This document shows, piece after piece, positions 1 through 52,805 of a stretch of 64,000 nucleotides of DNA. The stretch is taken from assembly GCF_009730915.1 (NCBI RefSeq), contig NC_052486.1, forward strand, positions 17,947,589 through 18,011,588, in the 5' to 3' direction. Both the position numbers and the translations under genes were made by a program. The first letter of the stretch is position 1. Each line of letters starts with the position of its first letter. The notes under the pieces are model-generated. The model ran no database searches and had not been told where the DNA came from. It was given only the letters and a program-made list of their open reading frames with translations. Origin of the DNA: Dioscorea cayenensis subsp. rotundata (taxonomy: Eukaryota; Streptophyta; Magnoliopsida; Dioscoreales; Dioscoreaceae).

Positions 1-4326
<4,326 letters not shown>

Positions 4327-4349
4327 CCTTCCAAGCTCCAGATCCCACA

Positions 4350-4351
<2 letters not shown>

Positions 4352-4386
<35 letters not shown>
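4352..4386. repeat. (CT)n microsatellite in the P450 reductase leader
   Basis: Uninterrupted CT dinucleotide run about 26 bp upstream of the reductase start codon; it reads as (GA)n in the sense of the gene. GA/CT runs in 5' leaders are common in plants. Confidence 0.9.
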
Positions 4387-4392
<6 letters not shown>

Positions 4393-4992
4393 GCCTTCGC
4401 TTCTCGAGAGTCCCGGGGGTTGGTAGGAGACGAGGAGAGCAGCGATGGGGGTTGGGGCGTGTTTATAATGATGTGAATGGTGTCTTTTTATCTTCACCGA
4501 GAAAATCTCACCCAAAAAAAATCACCTAATAAAATAGTAGGACCCACACACAAAAGATCCATGTTAGCAATGTCCTGACTAATGTGGTGCCGTTTGTTTA
4601 GAGTTTTCATTTGCGGGTCCATTTTGATCCAACGGCCAACAACGCCCACCAAACCCCCATCAGTGAAACCACCTAACCCCTACTCTGCTACTCCTCTTCG
4701 GTTAACAGTTAAAAGTTAAAATATATATATATATATATTATGTTTAATTACAAAAATACCCTTCACTGGCTGTAATTTGGAACTCAGATCCGCCGTTTCA
4801 TGAGTTTGATCCGAGACCAATTGAAGTGTGACATGTAGAATTGTCGGCATATGAGTGTGATTTGCGTGTCCGAAAGGAACACCGAAACATCGAGAACTTT
4901 TAAAGGACGTGGAGTTACATTAATGCCCTTAAGGCGTAGCTCCGCCCGTGAGATCAACGTGAACCGTTGGATGAACAGAGTTTTTGAATCAG

Positions 4993-5020
4993 CACGTGTG
5001 GGCAATCCTTTCGCCACGTG
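4993..5020. promoter_or_regulatory. Two G-box (CACGTG) motifs upstream of the P450 reductase gene
   Basis: Two perfect CACGTG palindromes, at 4993-4998 and 5015-5020, lie 22 bp apart about 0.67 kb upstream of the reductase start codon. G-boxes are the core target of plant bZIP and bHLH factors (ABRE type when followed by GTC or GGC). A role here is inferred from motif and position only. Confidence 0.4.
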
Positions 5021-5590
5021 TCGTCTGTGCAGAGATCGGCAAATGTGCATTTCCTCACGCCACTTGGAAATTTCTCATTCATAATTACAATTATTTCATT
5101 TTAAAATTTGGTGAGTTTTCAAATATGTACCATTTTATAATATTTTGTATATTTTTTTCTCTGTTGAAGAATATTTTGATTTTATTAAAAAAAATGATAT
5201 TTTGATTCTTTATATATCATTATTATAAAATAATCAATTCAGGATATAAATACAGGTAGAGAGAGTGAAATATAAAAAAAATACAAAAGAAGAGAGCATA
5301 AAAGAAAAAAAAATACAGAATATAAGTTAGTCTAAAATAATTAGGTGACTCGAAAATAATTAAAAAGACAAAAAAACAAACAGGTACTTTAAGAAAAAAA
5401 AATCACATGTTAGATTGTTGACTATGTTGATTAGGTGACATGTTAGAAATCTTCTGCTCAAATCTAAGGGACTCCCTCATAGAATCTTCATTACTAGATA
5501 TGTTCATTACATAAACAAAGTGTGTTTGTATATACTTGGGGTAGGGTTTGGGCTCGGGCTTGAAGCCAAACTAGTATCGCAACAAATACC
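5021..5590. other. AT-rich spacer
   Basis: Region upstream of the reductase promoter motifs. It is AT-rich with A-runs and no reading frame or repeat structure I can support. Confidence 0.5.
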
Positions 5591-7292
5591 TGTTAGGATT
5601 ATGCCCTCGAATGCAACGAGGATACTTATATTAGGGCATTTCATTTATATTATACATTCTTATTTAGTAGTCATTTATTTTGATGTTCATATAAATCTTA
5701 TGATGGCATTATAATTGGTTTTGAATATCATAGTCCATGTATATTAAGTTAAATCTTCTACTCTTTCTGGGATAAAGAGAAGAGCACTAGAAGAGTTTGG
5801 TACTTATACACTTAAATAGTTTCCAAATCAGAGAATCTTTAATTGGGCGTTAAAAGGTTCGTAAGGATTTGTATGACATATACTTTGAGAAAGAATGCTA
5901 GTTGAACACTATGGAATAGTGGGAGCATATGTCATAAATACATCATTGGGAATTGGTGTATTCGAACATGACTCGCAACAATCCAATCACATGGGTTTTA
6001 CTCTTTGACAGTCAATGATTGGGATTGTTGGTTATGATCATATGAGTGGACCTTAGACCTGAGGTATCATGATCACAATGTACTTGTGACGTCTAGTCTG
6101 TTACTAGAGTTGTTAGGCTCAGTTCACCTTTTAGTAGGGTCGACCTCGAAGTGCGACTATGTCGGGCAAGTCGCAGTTGTGAGTGATCACCAAGAAGAAA
6201 TTCGTTCTCTCGGAAGTAAACAAGTCAGTATCCTAGGCGACTATAAGTATGTGAGATTAGAAGACCTTGGCCAAGATATTCAAACTAATCGTGTGGGACA
6301 CGAAGGGCAATTTGGTAATCTCACCCCACTATAGTTATTTGCATATCATCGAATTCAGTGAGTTTGACAATTACCATGGCTCTCACTCGGTTGGAATACA
6401 CAAACGAAAGGTTTATACACATATGGTAATCATAATCGGAAATGTTCGTAATGATCTACTCATTCGTGTTCAATTGGGCTACGACGTGGGGCCACGGGGC
6501 TGGCTAGGTGTTACCCACGTCCTTTGGTATCCTCCCATTGCCAATCGAAATGAACCTAGGGAGTCACGCTTAAAGGGATAAAAAATCAGTCTCGTTTTGA
6601 GTACAAGGGTAAAATTGTCAATTTACAATTTTATTTCATGGGATGAGTGAAATTGTAAATTGATCTAGGGTTTTTTCTTAAGTTTAAATTTTGATTTAAA
6701 TTCGATGGAGTCGAATAGATAATCAAAATTATGAGTACTCAAAGATAAAAGTAGTTTTAGTTAGATTAGGACTCATATTTCTAATAGAACTTCTATGGTA
6801 ATGTTTATCATATTATGAAGGTTCATATGTTAAATAGGCTTTATAATTGAATGATGTTTATCATGTTTTGAAGGTTCGTATTTCAAATAGAACTCATAAT
6901 TGAATAATGTTTATCATGTTTTATGAAGTTTCTATAAATATGACTCCTCTCCAACTATAGAATAATCTCAATTAATTCTTTAGTGAGAAAATCCCCTAGC
7001 TCTTTCTTCCTCTCTAACCCTAGCCGCTATTTGGAGAGGAAGAGGAGATTGTCTCTTAATTCCGGTGTGTGATTTAGAGGCATGGAACTTTCGTTCGGCG
7101 CTAGGAGATCTATGACAATCCGAGAGATAAATTTGGCGCATCAAAAGAAAAAAAAATCATTAAGAGGTAACTTTCTACGCCTTTTAATTAAATTACGGTG
7201 CTCATTAAAACAATTAGAATATATATCACAAATATATTATTACATCCGCATGCCTTTTTAATGTTATTTGATTTTTGTGATATTACCTAACA
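5591..7292 (+). mobile_element. Solo LTR of a retrotransposon (1,702 bp)
   Basis: Starts TGTTAGG and ends CCTAACA, the inverted TG...CA ends expected of an LTR. It is flanked by the perfect 5-bp duplication ATACC at 5586-5590 and 7293-7297. The right copy follows the CCTAACA end directly, so there is no primer-binding site, internal region or second LTR: this is a solo LTR left by LTR-LTR recombination. A TATA-box candidate, CTATAAATA, at 6932-6940 with a pyrimidine-rich stretch downstream points to plus orientation. The superfamily (Copia or Gypsy) cannot be decided from the LTR alone. ORFs inside it show no recognisable domain. Confidence 0.85.
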
Positions 7293-44446: not shown

Positions 44447-47400
44447 ATGCGCCAGTGGAGTCTGAGAAGTAGAAGCCTCAAGCGTCTCCTCTCCATCTCC
44501 ATTGGAAGGAGAAGCACCAGAGCAGAGGAAGAGTCTATGGGTGAAGACAATGGCTTCAAGTCCATGGAGGATTCACCTCAGAAGCCAACATGGAGATGCT
44601 TCTCCTTTGAAGAAATCCATAAAGCCACCAATGGCTTCCACCAAGGTTTTATTTTTCAATGTTCTTGTTCTTGTTTTCAACTCAAGTTTCAATTTTTCAT
44701 GGTAAAGTTGGTGACTTGGTGAGTCTTTTGAGTAGATAACTTGGTTGGGAGAGGAGGGTATGCAGAGGTGTATAGAGGGGTAATGGAAGATGGTGGAGTG
44801 ATTGCTGTGAAGAGGTTGACTAGGGCTTCAACTGAAGAGCAGAAGGAGAAAGAGTTCTTGACTGAGATTGGTACTATTGGGCATGTTAAGCATCCTAATG
44901 TTACTGCTCTTCTTGGTTGTTGCATTGAAAAGGACCTTTACCTCATCTTTGAGTTCTCCTCCAATGGTTCTGTATCATCTCATCTTCATGGTACCTGCAT
45001 CATTCGAAGAATTTGTTTGTTCAATTATTTCAATTAGAGGATTTGTTCTTTGTTCTTGTTTAATGTGTGTTTCTGAATGTTCTTGTGATGAAGATGAGAG
45101 TTCTATGCCAATGACTTGGAATTTGAGGTATAAGATTGGGATTGGCACTGCTCATGGACTTCATTATTTGCACAAAGGTTGCCAGAGAAGGATCATTCAT
45201 AGAGATATCAAGGCATCAAACATACTCTTGACATCCGACTTTGAACCACAAGTAATGCTGATGATCTCTTGGAATTCATTCAAGCTTAATCTTTGTAGTG
45301 CAATTTGATCTCTGGTTATTGACATGAAGCATTATTTGTTTTTGTATTAGATTTCAGACTTTGGGCTTGCGAGATGGCTTCCTTCTGAATGGAGTCATCG
45401 TGCCGTCGCACCGATTGAAGGAACATTTGGGTAGTTAAAACCTTGAAAAACTTGCTTAATTTTACTGAATTTTACTGAATTTTAAGCTTTCAGATGCTTA
45501 GCGCCGGAGTACTTCATGCACGGAATAATTGATGAGAAGACCGATGTGTTTGCTTTCGGTGTCTTCCTTTTAGAGCTCATATCAGGGAGAAAACCGGTGG
45601 ATGGTTCTCATAAAAGCTTGCTCAGCTGGGTAACATTTAATGTATCTCTTTTCATTCTCCGATGTACTTGTTCACTGATACTGATCTCCTATCTACCTCA
45701 TTACACTACACCAATTTAATTCTTTAGAGGCAGAAAGGAAGAGCCGGTTTTAAAAAATCGGCTCCATAATTAACATTAAAAGAAATCCATCCTATGTTTA
45801 GAGCCGGTTTAAAATAACCGCTTCTAAAAATTAAATTTCATATAGGATTCTTTGGTCTTCTTCGTTTGCTCGAGCGGCGACCCCCATGAAAGAAGATATC
45901 AGAGTCAGAAGCGCCTCGACTCCCTCTCCTCGCCCCTTCCTCGGCGCAAGATTGACTCTTGCCGAAACCCTAACCCTAGTCCCGACCCAGCTTCTCCTCC
46001 GGCGATAGTGGCTGGTTCTCTAGCAATGATGAGATTCACACTGATCTCTTCAACCAAACCTCTTCTCTCACCCTTAACAATTGCGATGATGATGAGACCG
46101 AAACCATAATTTCCTCCTCCACCGACTCATCAGACAGCATTAATCTCAGGAAGGAGATGGAGAAAGGTCAAGGAGAGCTTCGCCGTGGTGAAGAGATCTG
46201 GCGATCCATGGCGAAGATGATTGTGGACGAGAAGGAGCTGTACAAGCCCCCTTCTCTGGAGGAGCTCTTGCATTGCCTCCTCTCTCTTAACTCTTGCCGC
46301 CACCACTGCACCATCATCTCCGTCTTCTCCGAGATCTGCCACCACCGCCGATAAGCAACACCCTTGAGGTTCACTGTTCTTCTCCTCATCTTTGCTCATA
46401 TACTCCCGTACTTCTATACAAATACTATGTTTTAACAATAATAATAGAAGAGTTCGGCATCAGCGCTCAAAGAAATCGGTGGACTCATTTCCGCATTTTC
46501 TTCATCAACCACGACCGCAGGGATGCTGGATATCAATATCTTCAGTGCCGAGAAAGGCTTCGATTCCATGCGCATCCGCGAGTCTCAGTACTGCCGCTTC
46601 ACAAGCGTCAAGGTCATCGATGAGATCATCAGCTTTGCCAAAGAATGGCAGCAGCGTATGCATCCCATACTTCCTCTCTTCTTAGCTCTATGGCTAACTC
46701 TTCTCATTTCGATCTTGGTGTTTTTGCAGATTAATTCGAGTTGAAGAATCTTAGAAAAGACTTTAATTGAATTAACAAGGAGGTTGCATGTCTCAAAATT
46801 GTGAGTTTCTTTGACGTTCTAAGTTGTGATTTGGGGGAAAATAGGGTTTTCAATTGTTTGATTGGTGCAGGTGAAGAAGGATGCGACGGAGATGATAAAT
46901 AGCACTAATGGGAACAAGAAATTGACTGTGGAGAAGGAGATTTAGTAAAAATGAGTGGTTAATGCTTGTATGCATTTTCAATGTTTTTTCATAAGAAACA
47001 TTGAAACTGATGCACATCTAATGTGCCCATTATGTGCCCACACATTTATAGCTTTCCTTATCAAAATCAAAGTGTAATTATTAAATTCTAATCTAACATT
47101 TCTTTGAGAATGTGCTTGTATGCAGATAACCTCTCTTTATGGTGGACTTTTGGAGTTCCTTTTTCTAGTTGAAAGCATTGATGATCCAGCTTACCATGCT
47201 ATATCTAGTTTAATCTCAGAATTCAAGAAAGCTTATCAAACAAGTACGTTGCTATTCATACATTAACCAAGGAGCTATGATTTTTTTCTTTTTGCTTTTT
47301 CACTTTTTTGTGCTCTTGCAATCTTCACCAATGTATCTTTTTGAATTGTTTTACTTATAACATTTCTAGGCACAAAACGTGTAGCCCTCTCTTCTCTTGT

Positions 47401-50400
47401 CACACTTAAGTTTCACCCTCTACTTGCAAATTCAGTTTCCTTGATGTAGGCAGCTCTAAAACAGTTAGATATGACCAAAAGGACATGCAGATAACTTCAC
47501 TTTTTCTGAACATCTTCTATAGATTTCTCCAAGTTGAATCTATTTTTCTGTAAAATGAAGCTTATCTTTTGCCACCATCCATGTGTTCATATTTCTATTT
47601 TTAATGGAGGTTACTTATAATATCCCACTTTCCTTCTATGTAGTCTCCCATGAATATGACTAGCTTTGCATTGTGCTTTTTTTTTCCCATTAGTTTCTCT
47701 AGAATTTTATTTAAAAAAATAAATCAAGTTGCTTGTTTCTTTAGATTATTTGATGAGCACATAATATGTCAGGGTGGAAAAGAATCCTATGTTCAGTGTG
47801 TTTAATTTCTGTACGGTTCCTTTTTGTTGTTGATTTTCAGTACAGTGTTGATGTAAAGATTGTGTGGCTGGTCTCTCAACAACATGGAGTCAGAAAATTC
47901 ATAATCAGTTAGTATGTATTGCATTAATACCTTCTTCTATTCGGTAAAAATAGATTGCGGTGTTCTTTAAGAGGGTTCATTTTAAAGTTTGCATGTAGTA
48001 CTTCCTCTTTACAACAAAAGGCAGTGTCTTGCTCTTAATGATGCAATAGATATTTACTTTCTGCATGTGTTATTTCATTTAATATAGATGATAGTTACTT
48101 TCTCCTATTTGTTGAAATGAAATAGATATTTATTCAAACTGGATATCCTCTTGATCTGCCTTCTGGAAGCTTGGGAAGCTATTGCATTTATGAATATGAC
48201 ATGGTAAATAATTATCAGAACAACCTATCTATCCTCCTAGCCATTGTCCTTCTGCATATTAATTCAGAATTTGGGCAATTACCTTCCAACAGTTTGTTCT
48301 GACTTAAACAAAGAAGCTACTCACACTGCATCAAAGTTGAAGCAAATTTTTAAACATATTCTTTAAAGCAACCAATTTGTTGGCTTCTTCTTTTATGTAA
48401 CACAATTATTGTTGCTGCAAAATTTGCAATCGAGCATTCTTCTCTTACAGAAAATATCTAGTTATTCCAACTGACTTAGTAGTACCATTAATGCTATTGA
48501 TGGAATTTATTATTTTTGTCTGAGGAGAATTTATACTCAAGGACAATATTTTCAGCCTTGCTCAATGGGATTTGCAACTAGTGGGAAGACATTTTTCCTA
48601 TCTAGTGGCTATATAATGGTACATGGTTCATCATTCATATCACATTTACATTGACCTACAAAATATATCTAGAATTTTGACACTTAGGGACTTATTAAAG
48701 TTGTTCCATCCTCTTAGATGCATGCAGATGATTTTAGAAAAGATTCACATGATGTTGTTAGTGGACTGAGAGATGGTGGATATTTTGATGACATGACTCT
48801 TGCTGCAATAGCTTGTAATTTCTTGCTTCATATGCATGACTTGAAAATGCATTTATTTTTTCATGCTGTAAGTGAAATAAGCAAAAAATAATAGTAATAA
48901 AATAAAAAAGGCTTCACTGATGAACTCAATTCTTCCATCTAATACTCATGCATATGATGATTGCACGCATCAAATCTGTACATATGGTCCTAACTGTGCA
49001 TGAACTGCATATGGCAGATTAGATATGATCAAGTGACCATTTTTCCCATGCAGATGTATTCTAATGTTTCTAATTAATTTTCTAAAATTATCCAAATGTT
49101 ATAAATCCTAATAATATTCATGCCGTTTAGATGCATAACCCACACTTCCTTATCAGGGAAAACAAAAACTTATTTCTTCACCATTAGTTGTTGTCTTTCC
49201 TCATCCTCTTGCTAGTGACCTAAGCTTTGCTAGGTAATCAAATTCAATTTAGTATTTCTGATCAGCTCATACATAACCATGTCATATTTATTATACTAAT
49301 CCTGTTCAGGTTCCAAATTTACTAATGAAACAAACTTTTGTTCTAGAGCTAACATCTTGATTGTTAACTGGTCATGCCATCCTTGCTATTCTTCTCTTGT
49401 GCAGATACTGGAATTACCTGAGGAAGAAAACTTTTGTTCTTGAATCTTACATTTCAGAGGTTAATTGGCTCATGAACCGAGCATTATTTTTTGCGCACTG
49501 CTATCTACCTTGGGCGTTTGTTGTACCATATTTCATGGCAACTATACACTTTTTGGCTGCCATAAGAGCACAAATTAGTAACTATCTCTCCAGAGAATCA
49601 AATTCATTATCTTGTGGTGAGCAAACTACTCTATTCTTACAAAATTACTAACTGGCCTTAAAGCTACCAATTTTTTTACCTCATCAGCTACTTGTACACA
49701 TGATCTTCAGTAAAGGGGATTGGATTTGAAGTTTTTGATTGGGGATTAAAGTTAAATTGGGTGTTGTTCAGGCTTTGTCATTGGCTGGCTGCTTGGTAGT
49801 TTGCATAGTTATTACACTTGTCTCAACATGGAACTTGACAAAGGTGGAAATTCAGTTGTGCAACATGTCATCTCCTGAGGGGCCAAAAATGTCACTTGGT
49901 TCCTATAACTGGGGACTCGTATGCATCGTCTTCACTATGTATATATATATTAATTTCTTTTTATTGACTTCAAAGCAGGTATTTTTTGCCATGCTCATAG
50001 ACAATTTCTTGTGCCCCATTTCTGCGATGCGGTCGTATTTTCATAAAATATGTAACCTAGTCTAGAGTTCAATGCTACTTGAAGGAAGGAAAAATAAGCA
50101 AGGTATGCTTTAATGTTCTTTGATTCTTAAATGTGTTGTCTGTCAAAGTTAAGGTTCTAAATTTTAACAGGCTTCAACGTTGTCATGATTGTACCAAGCA
50201 TTAGCTTTTCTTCATTGAACAACTCATCTAGTAGAATTAGTTTAATGTTCAAGGACATGTTCTTTCTTTGAAGTATAATTCTAGTTAACTACACTTGTTT
50301 CTATCAAACAACAATATTAACTGCCAAAAAATATGTACAAATCTTGAGAAACTTGAACACACTGGCAATTCTTTTTTTGGTAGCTTTTGATCATGCAATG

Positions 50401-52805
50401 TCTATACTAAATGTACTAAATAAAAATATGATCAACATACACATTGATGCAAAATCTGAACACAAAATATGATATTCTCCAAATCTCTAGTGACAAACAA
50501 TACCATGGTTACCATGAAAAACTAACTCCATTAATTTTACAAACTGTTTTGCAGATTGAAAGACTTAAACAAGATGGTGTGACTTATTCTAATCTTGGAG
50601 GGAAACATTTATACAGTAAACTGGTTTGCATTCTAGAAAGTCTCATTTGTTGGATTTTTAGTAAAAAGATTGGTTCGATGGCGTAAACTGAAGAGGTTTG
50701 ATAGCTAGAAACCATCATTTCCCACAGAGAGCATGTGGCATTCTTTGTGTTTTTATTTTCTTCTTCTTTTCTTGTGTAATTGCTTGTAATCTCCTTTTCA
50801 TTTTTTTGGGAACAATGTATCATATTCATTCATTTGATTCTTTTGTATAGATTTTTTTTCAATTGAATATTGTGTAAACTATTTAACTAATGGCAATTCT
50901 TCATTAGATATGTGCCTTTCTTATTTTAGATTGATGAGCAAAGAGTGATGTGTGTAAAATTATCATGTCAGTAAATTTACTGAGTTAAAAGCAATCAAGT
51001 TTTATATTTTATTTTGTTGATCAAAAATAGTGTTTTTCTTGTGAGGTAAAAAAAAAAATTAAAATTCAATTCAACTAATGAACAAATGTAGAGGTGGTTA
51101 TCACCGTCTCTGAAATTCTTATACCTCCTCAATACTTTTAGAGGCGGTTATAACCGCCTCTAAAACTCTTATTTTTCAAATTCATATTTTTAGAGGTGGT
51201 TATAACCGCCTCTAAAACTTGTGAAGAGGGATAAACCTCTACAGCTATTTCGGAGGAATAAGAAATTATTAGCTATAGAGGCGGTTATAACCGCCTCTAA
51301 AGCTATTTGCAAGATATAAGAAATTATGAGCTATAGAGGCGGTTATAACCGCCTCTACATTTGTTATAAAAAAACCGCTTTTTATGTAGATCAAATTTAC
51401 CCCAACGGTTATACTAAAGCTGGGCTCAAAGTGTAGAGCCGAACGATCTGAGACGGTTTAGAGGTGGGTGAAAAAAATTCACCTCTAAAGCTATAGAGGC
51501 GGTTTTAACCGCCTCTATAGGTCATGAAAACCGCCTCTAAAGCTCTTTTTTAGTGTAGTGTTAACAATGCAACAGGCAAAACCTTATTTAAGTGACAGAA
51601 TGGCAGAAATGCTCGTTGATCGACGCTTAGGGAATGATTACGACATTGTTCAACTGAAGAGGCTGGCTTTTGCTGCATCTCTTTGCATTAGACCAACTGC
51701 GATTCTTCGCCCTTCGATGAATGAGGTACATATATTGGTGTAATAGTAGGTTGCCCAATTGTTTCCACTGGTTTGTTTATCAATCATTCTGTTTCTAAAA
51801 ACTAGTGAAAAAAGACAGTTAAGAAGTTTCTCAACAACAAAAGATTAATAGGATAAGTAAACCTCACACAATCACCGATTTATATAAATTCAGTAATTTG
51901 TCAGTTAAGCTACCAATTTTGATAGTCATGCTTGGATTGCTGGTCCTAATCATGGTGGTTTATCCATTGCTGCCACCTTTTTGGGATTAGACGAAAAGTG
52001 ATTATGTTTTCAGGACTGTAACCTCATGCAATAACAAACGGACATCGATTAGCTTAAGTTTTGTCGTTTGAGCTGCCAATTTTGACGGTAATGCTTGGAT
52101 TACCAGTCTTAATCACAGTGGTTTATCCATTGCTTCCATCTTTTCAAGGTTAGCGAGGTAAGTTATCGATGTTTTATAAATATATCTTCATGCAATCAAT
52201 AATAAACACAATTAGCTCTGATTTGTCAGTTTATCTACCTGCTCTGGTTGTTGTGCTTGGGTTGCACCTTCTGAAGATTGATTAATAAGTTAAAAGTAAA
52301 CTATTGTTTCAGAAATATAACTTCACTCAATCACTAATTATTAATTACTTCCATCTTTTTGAGTAATCAATCACTGATAGACACCGAAAATATCGAATGA
52401 CATTCACCTTTTGAACTGTCTGATGTTAAATGTTTATGGATGAGAGTTATGAACATGCCATTACTGCAACCAAACTTTGAAGTCACCTTTGTCTCTGTCC
52501 TCAGCTTTTGACGCACAGGATGCTCATGTTTGACATAACTAAGAAACACATGCAATCAAAAGAGTGGTCTTAGATTATTAATTATCAAAGTAAACAAAAA
52601 CCATAATTTAAGCATGGATTAACATGTAACTGTTGATTAAAATATTAATGAATGTTGGCAGGTGTTAGAGCTGGTAGAGGACGGCGAGATTCCGTCGTCC
52701 TGCTGGACAAGGCCGGAAGATGAGGAAGAAGAGGAGTTCTGTGGATTCGATGATCTCGAAGAATTCGACACACCTTCATCACCATCATCAATGGCAAGTT
52801 GTTAA
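44447..52805 (+). CDS. Class VI receptor-like cytoplasmic Ser/Thr kinase (RBK type)
   Basis: Seven exons: 44447-44645, 44736-44990, 45094-45251, 45351-45430, 45494-45629, 51576-51725, 52662-52805; 1,122 bp, 373 residues, phases consistent. No signal peptide or membrane segment. Landmarks: [15 protein letters not shown], glycine loop [11 protein letters not shown] (71-81), Lys92 in [17 protein letters not shown] (Asp188), DFGLARWLP (Asp207), APE as LAPEYF (234-236), [18 protein letters not shown], and an acidic tail ([12 protein letters not shown]). All catalytic residues are present. The PSEWSHRAV activation segment and short N-terminus fit RLCK VI kinases, some of which bind ROP GTPases (family knowledge). 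A 5.86-kb CACTA transposon sits in the intron between residues 276 and 277; function depends on correct removal of that intron. The start is ATG 44447; an upstream GTG is not a start. Confidence 0.92.
45720..45845. repeat. Left subterminal repeats of the CACTA element
   Basis: Two diverged palindromes of the form GAGCCGGTTTT...ATCGGCTC and AGAGCCGGTTTAAAATAACC, related to the GAGGCGGTTATAACC units at the other end. In CACTA elements such subterminal motifs bind transposase. Confidence 0.7.
45866..46354 (+). pseudogene. Captured fragment of unknown gene in the CACTA element
   Basis: A GC-richer block with coding character. One plus-strand frame, open from about 46040 to 46354, includes [40 protein letters not shown] and [15 protein letters not shown]. 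Another frame opens at ATG 45887. The family is not recognised and frames shift along the block. Since the next segment comes from an unrelated gene, this is probably another captured exon. Confidence 0.4.
46523..46945 (+). pseudogene. Captured seryl-tRNA synthetase 5' gene fragment
   Basis: Three exons: 46523-46655 ([34 protein letters not shown]), 46730-46800 ([11 protein letters not shown], stop, [10 protein letters not shown]), 46871-46945 ([20 protein letters not shown] then EKEI and a stop). These match the N-terminal helical tRNA-binding arm of cytosolic SerRS (MLDINLF, ESQRRRF, DKEWRQRQFELENLRKDFNK, KKLTAEKEAEV). In-frame stops TAA and TGA in the second exon, plus the end of the homology at TAG, show it is non-functional. 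The catalytic domain is absent. GT-AG introns are kept, so it was copied from genomic DNA, not mRNA. Confidence 0.85.
47126..50686 (+). pseudogene. Captured ceramide glucosyltransferase (glucosylceramide synthase) gene copy
   Basis: Family GT21 enzyme that adds glucose to ceramide. Exon remnants in order: 47126-47243 ([20 protein letters not shown]), about 47847-47910 (VDVKIV, 2-bp insertion, [15 protein letters not shown]), 48126-48203 ([20 protein letters not shown]), 48556-48618 ([14 protein letters not shown]), 48718-48814 ([18 protein letters not shown]), 49157-49234 ([17 protein letters not shown]), 49405-49616 ([20 protein letters not shown]), about 49745-49918 ([20 protein letters not shown]), 49979-50102 ([16 protein letters not shown], then stop), 50555-50686 (LGGKHLYSK, then frame change). 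The first exon and an intact exon with the catalytic DDD-VRLHPG motif were not found. Stops and frameshifts make it a pseudogene. Confidence 0.88.
51090..51555. repeat. Right subterminal palindromes of the CACTA element
   Basis: Six copies of a 20-26-bp palindrome, consensus GAGGCGGTTATAACCGCCTC, near 51092, 51140, 51191, 51287, 51334 and 51496, some with one or two changes, plus half-sites next to the terminal repeat. Spacing varies from about 47 to 160 bp. Confidence 0.85.

Follow-up and report, generated by a model that had tools for sequence, protein, structure and literature searches.

The means by which cut-and-paste transposons take up host genes are not fully established. A model in which capture follows from the fusion of neighbouring elements reportedly goes back to the work of Catoni et al. 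2019 on Pack-CACTA, or Pack-TYPE, elements. In passages of a review (PMC13317346), capture is described as occurring when two adjacent Pack-CACTA elements fuse, each having a terminal deletion complementary to that of the other, and room is left for mechanisms of host-gene capture still to be discovered. The soybean element Tgm-Express1 is a 5.7-kb CACTA element located in an intron; it carries five host fragments and takes part in chimeric splicing, as seen by RT-PCR, according to passages of the paper that describes it (Zabala and Vodkin 2007, PMC1947982). Maize Helitrons are presented, in passages of another report (PMC3288121), as elements that hold several gene fragments each, gained stepwise, and class II elements of grapevine, CACTA included, as carrying and amplifying host fragments with their introns and exons (passages of PMC2528002).

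We analysed a stretch of 64,000 nucleotides of Dioscorea cayenensis subsp. rotundata DNA, designated 'the window', using searches that took in one 584-Mb genome. Our main reading, to which we give a probability of roughly 0.85, is that the window holds a Pack-CACTA element formed by three captures of host DNA, made in a stepwise order.

The element and its place in a kinase gene

An earlier sequence-only reading had proposed CACTA/TAGTG ends, a TTA target duplication and subterminal palindromes at 45704..51560, and all were confirmed at the exact bases. The segment is a complete non-autonomous CACTA element of 5.9 kb flanked by TTA on either side; it opens with CACTACACC at 45704 and closes with TAGTGTAGTG, the final base of TAGTG being 51560. 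The arms of the terminal inverted repeat (45703-45731 and 51533-51561) are 76% complementary, and the subterminal palindromes form a TAGAGGCGGTTATAACCGCCTCTA series at 51089-51551. The features of the element ends and of the intron are the following.

45630..51575, + strand: host kinase intron of 5,946 bp (splice sites by eye), 86 bp when the element and one target site duplication are subtracted
45701..45703, no strand: left target site duplication, TTA (sequence read)
45704..45731, + strand: left terminal inverted repeat, beginning CACTACACC
45704..45885, + strand: 5' transposon end (subterminal region), right edge approximate, common to the C773 element
51073..51560, + strand: 3' transposon end, with the subterminal palindromes and the right terminal repeat, common to the C773 element
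51561..51563, no strand: right target site duplication, TTA (sequence read)

Both ends recur elsewhere. At the 5' end, the C773 element matches element positions 1-179 and an element on C8 matches up to position 134. The 3' end (element positions 5370-5857) is also found in C773, and is present at many genomic sites among the best 40 of 405 candidates scored in the element-end search, the counts being lower bounds. The sites carrying these ends include copies with and without the cargo inserts, as the sequence-only reading had anticipated. Target site duplications were inspected for seven elements: five are perfect (TTA for the window copy, ATA for C18, TTA for C773, GAG for C8 and ACA for C5) and two have a single mismatch (ATG/ACG for C15, TTT/TTC for C14). 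The final base of the C5 element is A, not G. The C8 element (L055, G000:C8:6851500-6856400, element 93-4767) is itself a complete family member with a GAG/GAG duplication; its cargo is a piece of an ankyrin-repeat gene (PF00023, 3.6e-11), and no OVATE-family match was found in it.

The element had been said to lack a transposase, and this held: its interior is accounted for by end sequence and three host pieces with short junctions between them, and no Pfam match to a transposase was obtained among the seven of 61 listed open reading frames that were scanned. Matches to PF02992, considered as a possible sign of an autonomous partner, are abundant in the genome (best 150 of 1,603 candidates scored); in a comparison by eye of part of the two lists, no pairing with the element-end matches was seen among the matches listed, and a partner may or may not exist. 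The copies in the window and on C14, C15, C18 and C5 lie in unrelated flanks, as does the C9 copy on the one side compared, which argues for mobility. By its terminal inverted repeats, 3-bp target site duplication, subterminal repeats, host-gene pieces with copies outside the element, absence of transposase and mobility, it belongs with the Pack-CACTA elements.

As had also been proposed, the element lies within another gene, in an intron of a protein kinase gene whose flanking exons end at 45629 and resume at 51576 (splice sites by eye). The kinase domain (PF07714/PF00069) was found in three of the five window open reading frames scanned. The exon downstream of the element gave no Pfam match, and shows 72% and 60% identity to the equivalent exon of two paralogues. 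The best two kinase paralogues, on C3 and C16 (about 68% at the DNA level), have homologous introns of only 78 and 67 bp, neither of which matches the element. The genome search revealed no near-identical kinase allele that lacks the element, and the comparison is therefore with paralogues rather than with a true empty site. Since the intron acceptor is 15 nt downstream of the element end, the element comes between this acceptor and most of what was originally the intron; the likeliest effect of the window copy would be on the splicing of the kinase transcript.

Three host pieces and their likely donors

The cargo had been read as coming from at least two host genes. There are three, and the third, overlooked in the sequence-only reading, is an OVATE-family (OFP) fragment that precedes the seryl-tRNA synthetase (SerRS) and glycosyltransferase pieces.

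45911..46446, + strand: captured OFP fragment (PF04844), left edge approximate, right edge at the SerRS junction
46447..46945, + strand: captured SerRS fragment, comprising exon 1, an intron, exon 2 and the start of exon 3 (match to the C7 loci)
46946..46989, + strand: junction stretch of 44 bp, without match to the SerRS or glycosyltransferase loci
46990..51040, + strand: captured glycosyltransferase gene, introns kept, first exon(s) absent (86-89% to C14:18917381-18925033)
47126-47227, 47840-47911, 48126-48203, 48556-48618 and 48718-48813, + strand: glycosyltransferase exon matches, approximate (exon comparison)
49158-49234, 49406-49615, 49775-49921 and 49982-50099, + strand: further glycosyltransferase exon matches, approximate (exon comparison)
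48044..48050, no strand: site of a deletion of about 890 bp that removed the DDD-motif exon from the window copy (comparison with other copies)
51041..51072, + strand: junction stretch between the captured glycosyltransferase gene and the 3' transposon end, edges approximate (sequence comparison)

For the SerRS and glycosyltransferase exons, presence and direction were upheld, and it is the extents (46523-46945 and 47126-50686) that had to be widened, to 46447-46945 and 46990-51040. All three genes have copies outside the element, and host loci were found on C14, on C7 (two loci) and on C1212.

The OVATE domain of the first piece is located at about 46193-46342 (PF04844, E 3.8e-15), and the OFP/SerRS junction falls at element position 743/744. 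In a comparison that covered the first 1,300 element bases (the 5' part), positions 208-726 matched an OFP locus at C1212:135900-138300, in which OVATE is found at 1.4e-25 and whose K2P distance to the window copy is 0.124. In this locus (L051 829-1627), what we take to be the conserved start and the OVATE domain are in different frames; the split may be due to an intron, to a fault of assembly or to damage to the gene itself. We consider C1212 the likely OFP donor, less surely than the donors of the other two pieces. The true donor may be another gene, paralogous to this one, and, as C1212 was picked out of DNA matches, a closer OFP donor may exist.

In the SerRS piece, exon 1 runs from the ATG at 46523 to 46655, and exon 2 begins at 46730 (exon edges by eye). 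The piece is 88.8% and 88.6% identical to two loci, L047 (C7:21964200-21967600) and L048 (C7:6513900-6517300), both of which run past the two edges of the captured piece and have no transposon-end matches; their sequences point to them as the likely SerRS donors. L047 and L048 are about 99% alike across 2.3 kb, in opposite orientation and separated by about 15 Mb of the same contig, and are either a recent duplication or an assembly artefact. The captured SerRS open reading frame scored under the Pfam cut-off (E 0.069), and the SerRS locus translated with its stops as X gave no Pfam match; joined host exons were used instead, and matched cytoplasmic SerRS chains in the PDB at 2.7e-46, the identity of L047 and L048 being read from the first exons only.

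The glycosyltransferase piece, element positions 1287-5337, is matched at 86-89% by C14:18917381-18925033. No match to either transposon end was found at that locus within the stretch read. The ten family exons compared are all open there, and upstream of them the locus has an extra exon, absent from the element; on this comparison it is the likely donor. The DDD-motif exon is kept in the C14, C15, C18, C5, C9 and C19 copies of the element. Among glycosyltransferase genes, the captured one is probably that of ceramide glucosyltransferase, as the earlier label had it; the host exons reach only borderline Pfam scores, with glycosyltransferase families 2/21. Against NCBIfam, only bacterial relatives were retrieved, far under the cut-off. 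A second glycosyltransferase gene is present on C4, its final exon lying in an assembly gap, and partial loci were noticed at C2163:228841-233169, with stops and frameshifts, and at C17:1398401-1401520.

Less loaded relatives and the probable order of capture

The first genome search made with the element, in which the best 40 of 76 candidates were scored, gives counts that are lower bounds. When the OFP edge and the SerRS part served as queries, 38 places were returned. SerRS was matched at 19 of them: the window, the two C7 donors, seven other triple-cargo elements, eight elements with OFP and SerRS, and a partial one on C19. Seventeen of the remaining 19 have the OFP edge only, the last two being C1212 and a C18 locus that kept the glycosyltransferase and lost SerRS. 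No glycosyltransferase match was found at the eight OFP+SerRS loci. The triple-cargo lineage comprises nine loci, the window included, some of which were later partly deleted, C12 being seen in part only. Cargoes are therefore nested: OFP, SerRS in a subset, and the glycosyltransferase in a subset of that subset.

Upstream flanks are common to the C12 and C14 copies (L010/L012, 97.7%) and to the C19 and C5 copies (L014/L013, about 95.7%), so that each pair was counted as one insertion; from their sequence, the whole loci would have been either duplicated or assembled twice. Independent triple-cargo insertions number at most seven, in a flank comparison made without C2226 and on one side for C9. 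Two copies have retrotransposon-like interruptions, at about 1330-6181 of L014 (C19) and about 1377-8769 of L016 (C3, reverse strand). A transposase inside these larger copies was considered and rejected, the C19 interior being Copia-like and the C3 interior Gypsy-like (open reading frames by eye).

The junctions are informative about the history of the lineage. At the OFP/SerRS junction, the OFP+SerRS elements C1846 and C3 agree in position with the triple-cargo elements. That between SerRS and the glycosyltransferase lies inside a single alignment for the window, C15, C14, C12, C9 and C2226 copies, and is spanned by deletions in the C5, C19 and C18 copies. In triple-cargo copies, SerRS stops at position 1667; it continues past this position in all five OFP+SerRS elements read out of eight (L016 and L062 on C3, C1846, C111 and C1127). 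Three of the five end together at SerRS 2189-2194, while L016, read in part, stops with the end of the fetched stretch. For the OFP+SerRS elements, no 3' end was found within the stretches fetched. Among the 17 OFP-edge places a subset of four was read: L050 and L052 reach OFP-locus position 1824-1826, past the SerRS junction, and in C773 and C1 the OFP-locus match stops at 1695, short of it.

These breakpoints indicate that newer cargo trimmed the 3' part of the SerRS cargo, and probably that of the OFP cargo as well; as C773 and C1 stop short of the SerRS junction, trimming is less uniform for OFP than for SerRS. The two or three separate captures proposed earlier become three, with apparent intermediates. 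OFP would have been acquired first, SerRS second and the glycosyltransferase third, each round removing the 3' part of the cargo and replacing it by new host DNA and a 3' transposon end. In the simplest account, a left element deprived of its 3' end would each time fuse with a neighbour deprived of its 5' end, enclosing a host gene between them, and a CACTA transposase from elsewhere would mobilise the product in trans. The triple-cargo element would then have spread, one copy entering the 86-bp intron of the kinase gene. A left part with trimmed cargo, followed by new host DNA and a bare 3' end, is what the neighbour-fusion model predicts in the passages that describe it (PMC13317346), and the structures observed fit a history of stepwise capture in which neighbouring elements fused.

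Every cargo combination might instead have been captured independently, without stepwise addition. The trees built for OFP and for SerRS place the host locus between the strata (with moderate support), a position that separate captures would also produce. However, C1846 and C3 have the same 743/744 junction as the triple-cargo elements, and the alignment of the OFP-only element L050 to the window copy is a single run, from the first base to 743, which makes independent capture improbable.

Gap repair with template switching is a more serious rival as the mechanism of capture. It keeps the core of our preferred explanation and differs at the capture step: after excision, faulty repair would copy in an unlinked host gene and partly delete the older cargo, before switching back to the 3' end that the element already had. 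This would account for the short junction stretches (44 and about 32 bp), for donors unlinked to the element and for the trimming of older cargo. On its own, however, it does not explain why addition was on the 3' side at both steps. The element ends also bear on this point. Both ends were available for the triple-cargo copies, C773 and C8, and similar rates were assumed. The 3' end of C773 is nearer to that of C8 (p 0.147) than to those of the triple-cargo copies (0.167-0.226), whereas its 5' end is at p 0.404 from C8 and 0.234-0.257 from the triple-cargo copies. This hints that 3' ends may have a history other than that of the 5' ends, ends having been exchanged, which speaks against gap repair. 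We regard gap repair as a real possibility, and would still bet against it.

More generally, capture in this CACTA family may be iterative and directional, each new gene arriving at the 3' edge, trimming what is there and bringing a new 3' transposon end; we put this forward tentatively, at somewhat less than even odds. If it is true, the succession of captures can be read off the cargoes along an element, the 5' end is a lasting marker of the lineage and the 3' end its exchangeable part, and the genome holds natural before and after products of at least two successive captures.

What became of the cargo can be read from the same copies. In each of the eight triple-cargo rows aligned, SerRS exon 2 contains a TGA at a site that reads CGA in the donors; this stop is missing from the two OFP+SerRS elements in the alignment, of which C1846 has its own 1-bp gap there. 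A second stop in this exon was seen in the window copy alone. Glycosyltransferase exon C lacks 1 bp in five of the six copies compared and 2 bp in C5, and exon K has a 1-bp insertion common to five copies. Between the window copy and the donor glycosyltransferase, the K2P distance is 0.087 for exons and 0.080 for introns. From these patterns, the SerRS and glycosyltransferase frames were disabled before the copies spread, and no protein constraint is detectable on either piece. Three co-directional pieces with many GT-AG introns kept might suggest a functional chimeric gene, made as a fused protein. With a SerRS stop in every row and another in the window copy, frameshifts in exon C, a DDD exon absent from the window copy, and exons that diverged about as much as introns, that reading is hardly credible, and the functional fusion gene was rejected. 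The claim of a chimeric gene fails in this protein sense: because the common stops and frameshifts are older than the spread, a chimeric protein made from the cargo is unlikely.

Comparison with known systems

Multi-gene CACTA elements are already known; it is the capture history of this one that is unusually legible. Because one genome contains both less loaded relatives and likely donors of the three cargoes, the breakpoints of one capture can be set beside those of the next, and sequence alone becomes sufficient to tell neighbour fusion from gap repair. The element also offers a case for asking whether intronic multi-gene elements yield chimeric transcripts, as in soybean. Among the papers listed in searches of the open literature, we found no title or abstract opening that sets out stages of capture in a CACTA family from one genome.

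As far as the cited passages go, Tgm-Express1 resembles our element in being a CACTA element of comparable size (5.7 kb against 5.9 kb), located in an intron and filled with unrelated host fragments that include exons and introns. It has five fragments where ours has three, and its chimeric splicing was demonstrated by RT-PCR, whereas the element described here is known from DNA; here, however, less loaded relatives and likely donors could be read in the same genome. Grapevine elements likewise carry host fragments with introns and exons on class II transposons, but no ordered series of several genes appears in the passages concerned. With maize Helitrons, as portrayed in the passages cited above, the common points are the presence of multiple gene fragments in one element and their stepwise gain. 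As a class, Helitrons have different ends and a different mechanism; our element has terminal inverted repeats and a 3-bp duplication. The Pack-CACTA fusion model, in the passages that present it, deals with the same kind of element, non-autonomous, with its own ends and host cargo, and the deletions it predicts, at the 3' side of the left partner and the 5' side of the right one, match the trimmed cargo observed here. The difference is that it describes a single capture event, whereas capture appears to have been repeated here on one lineage.
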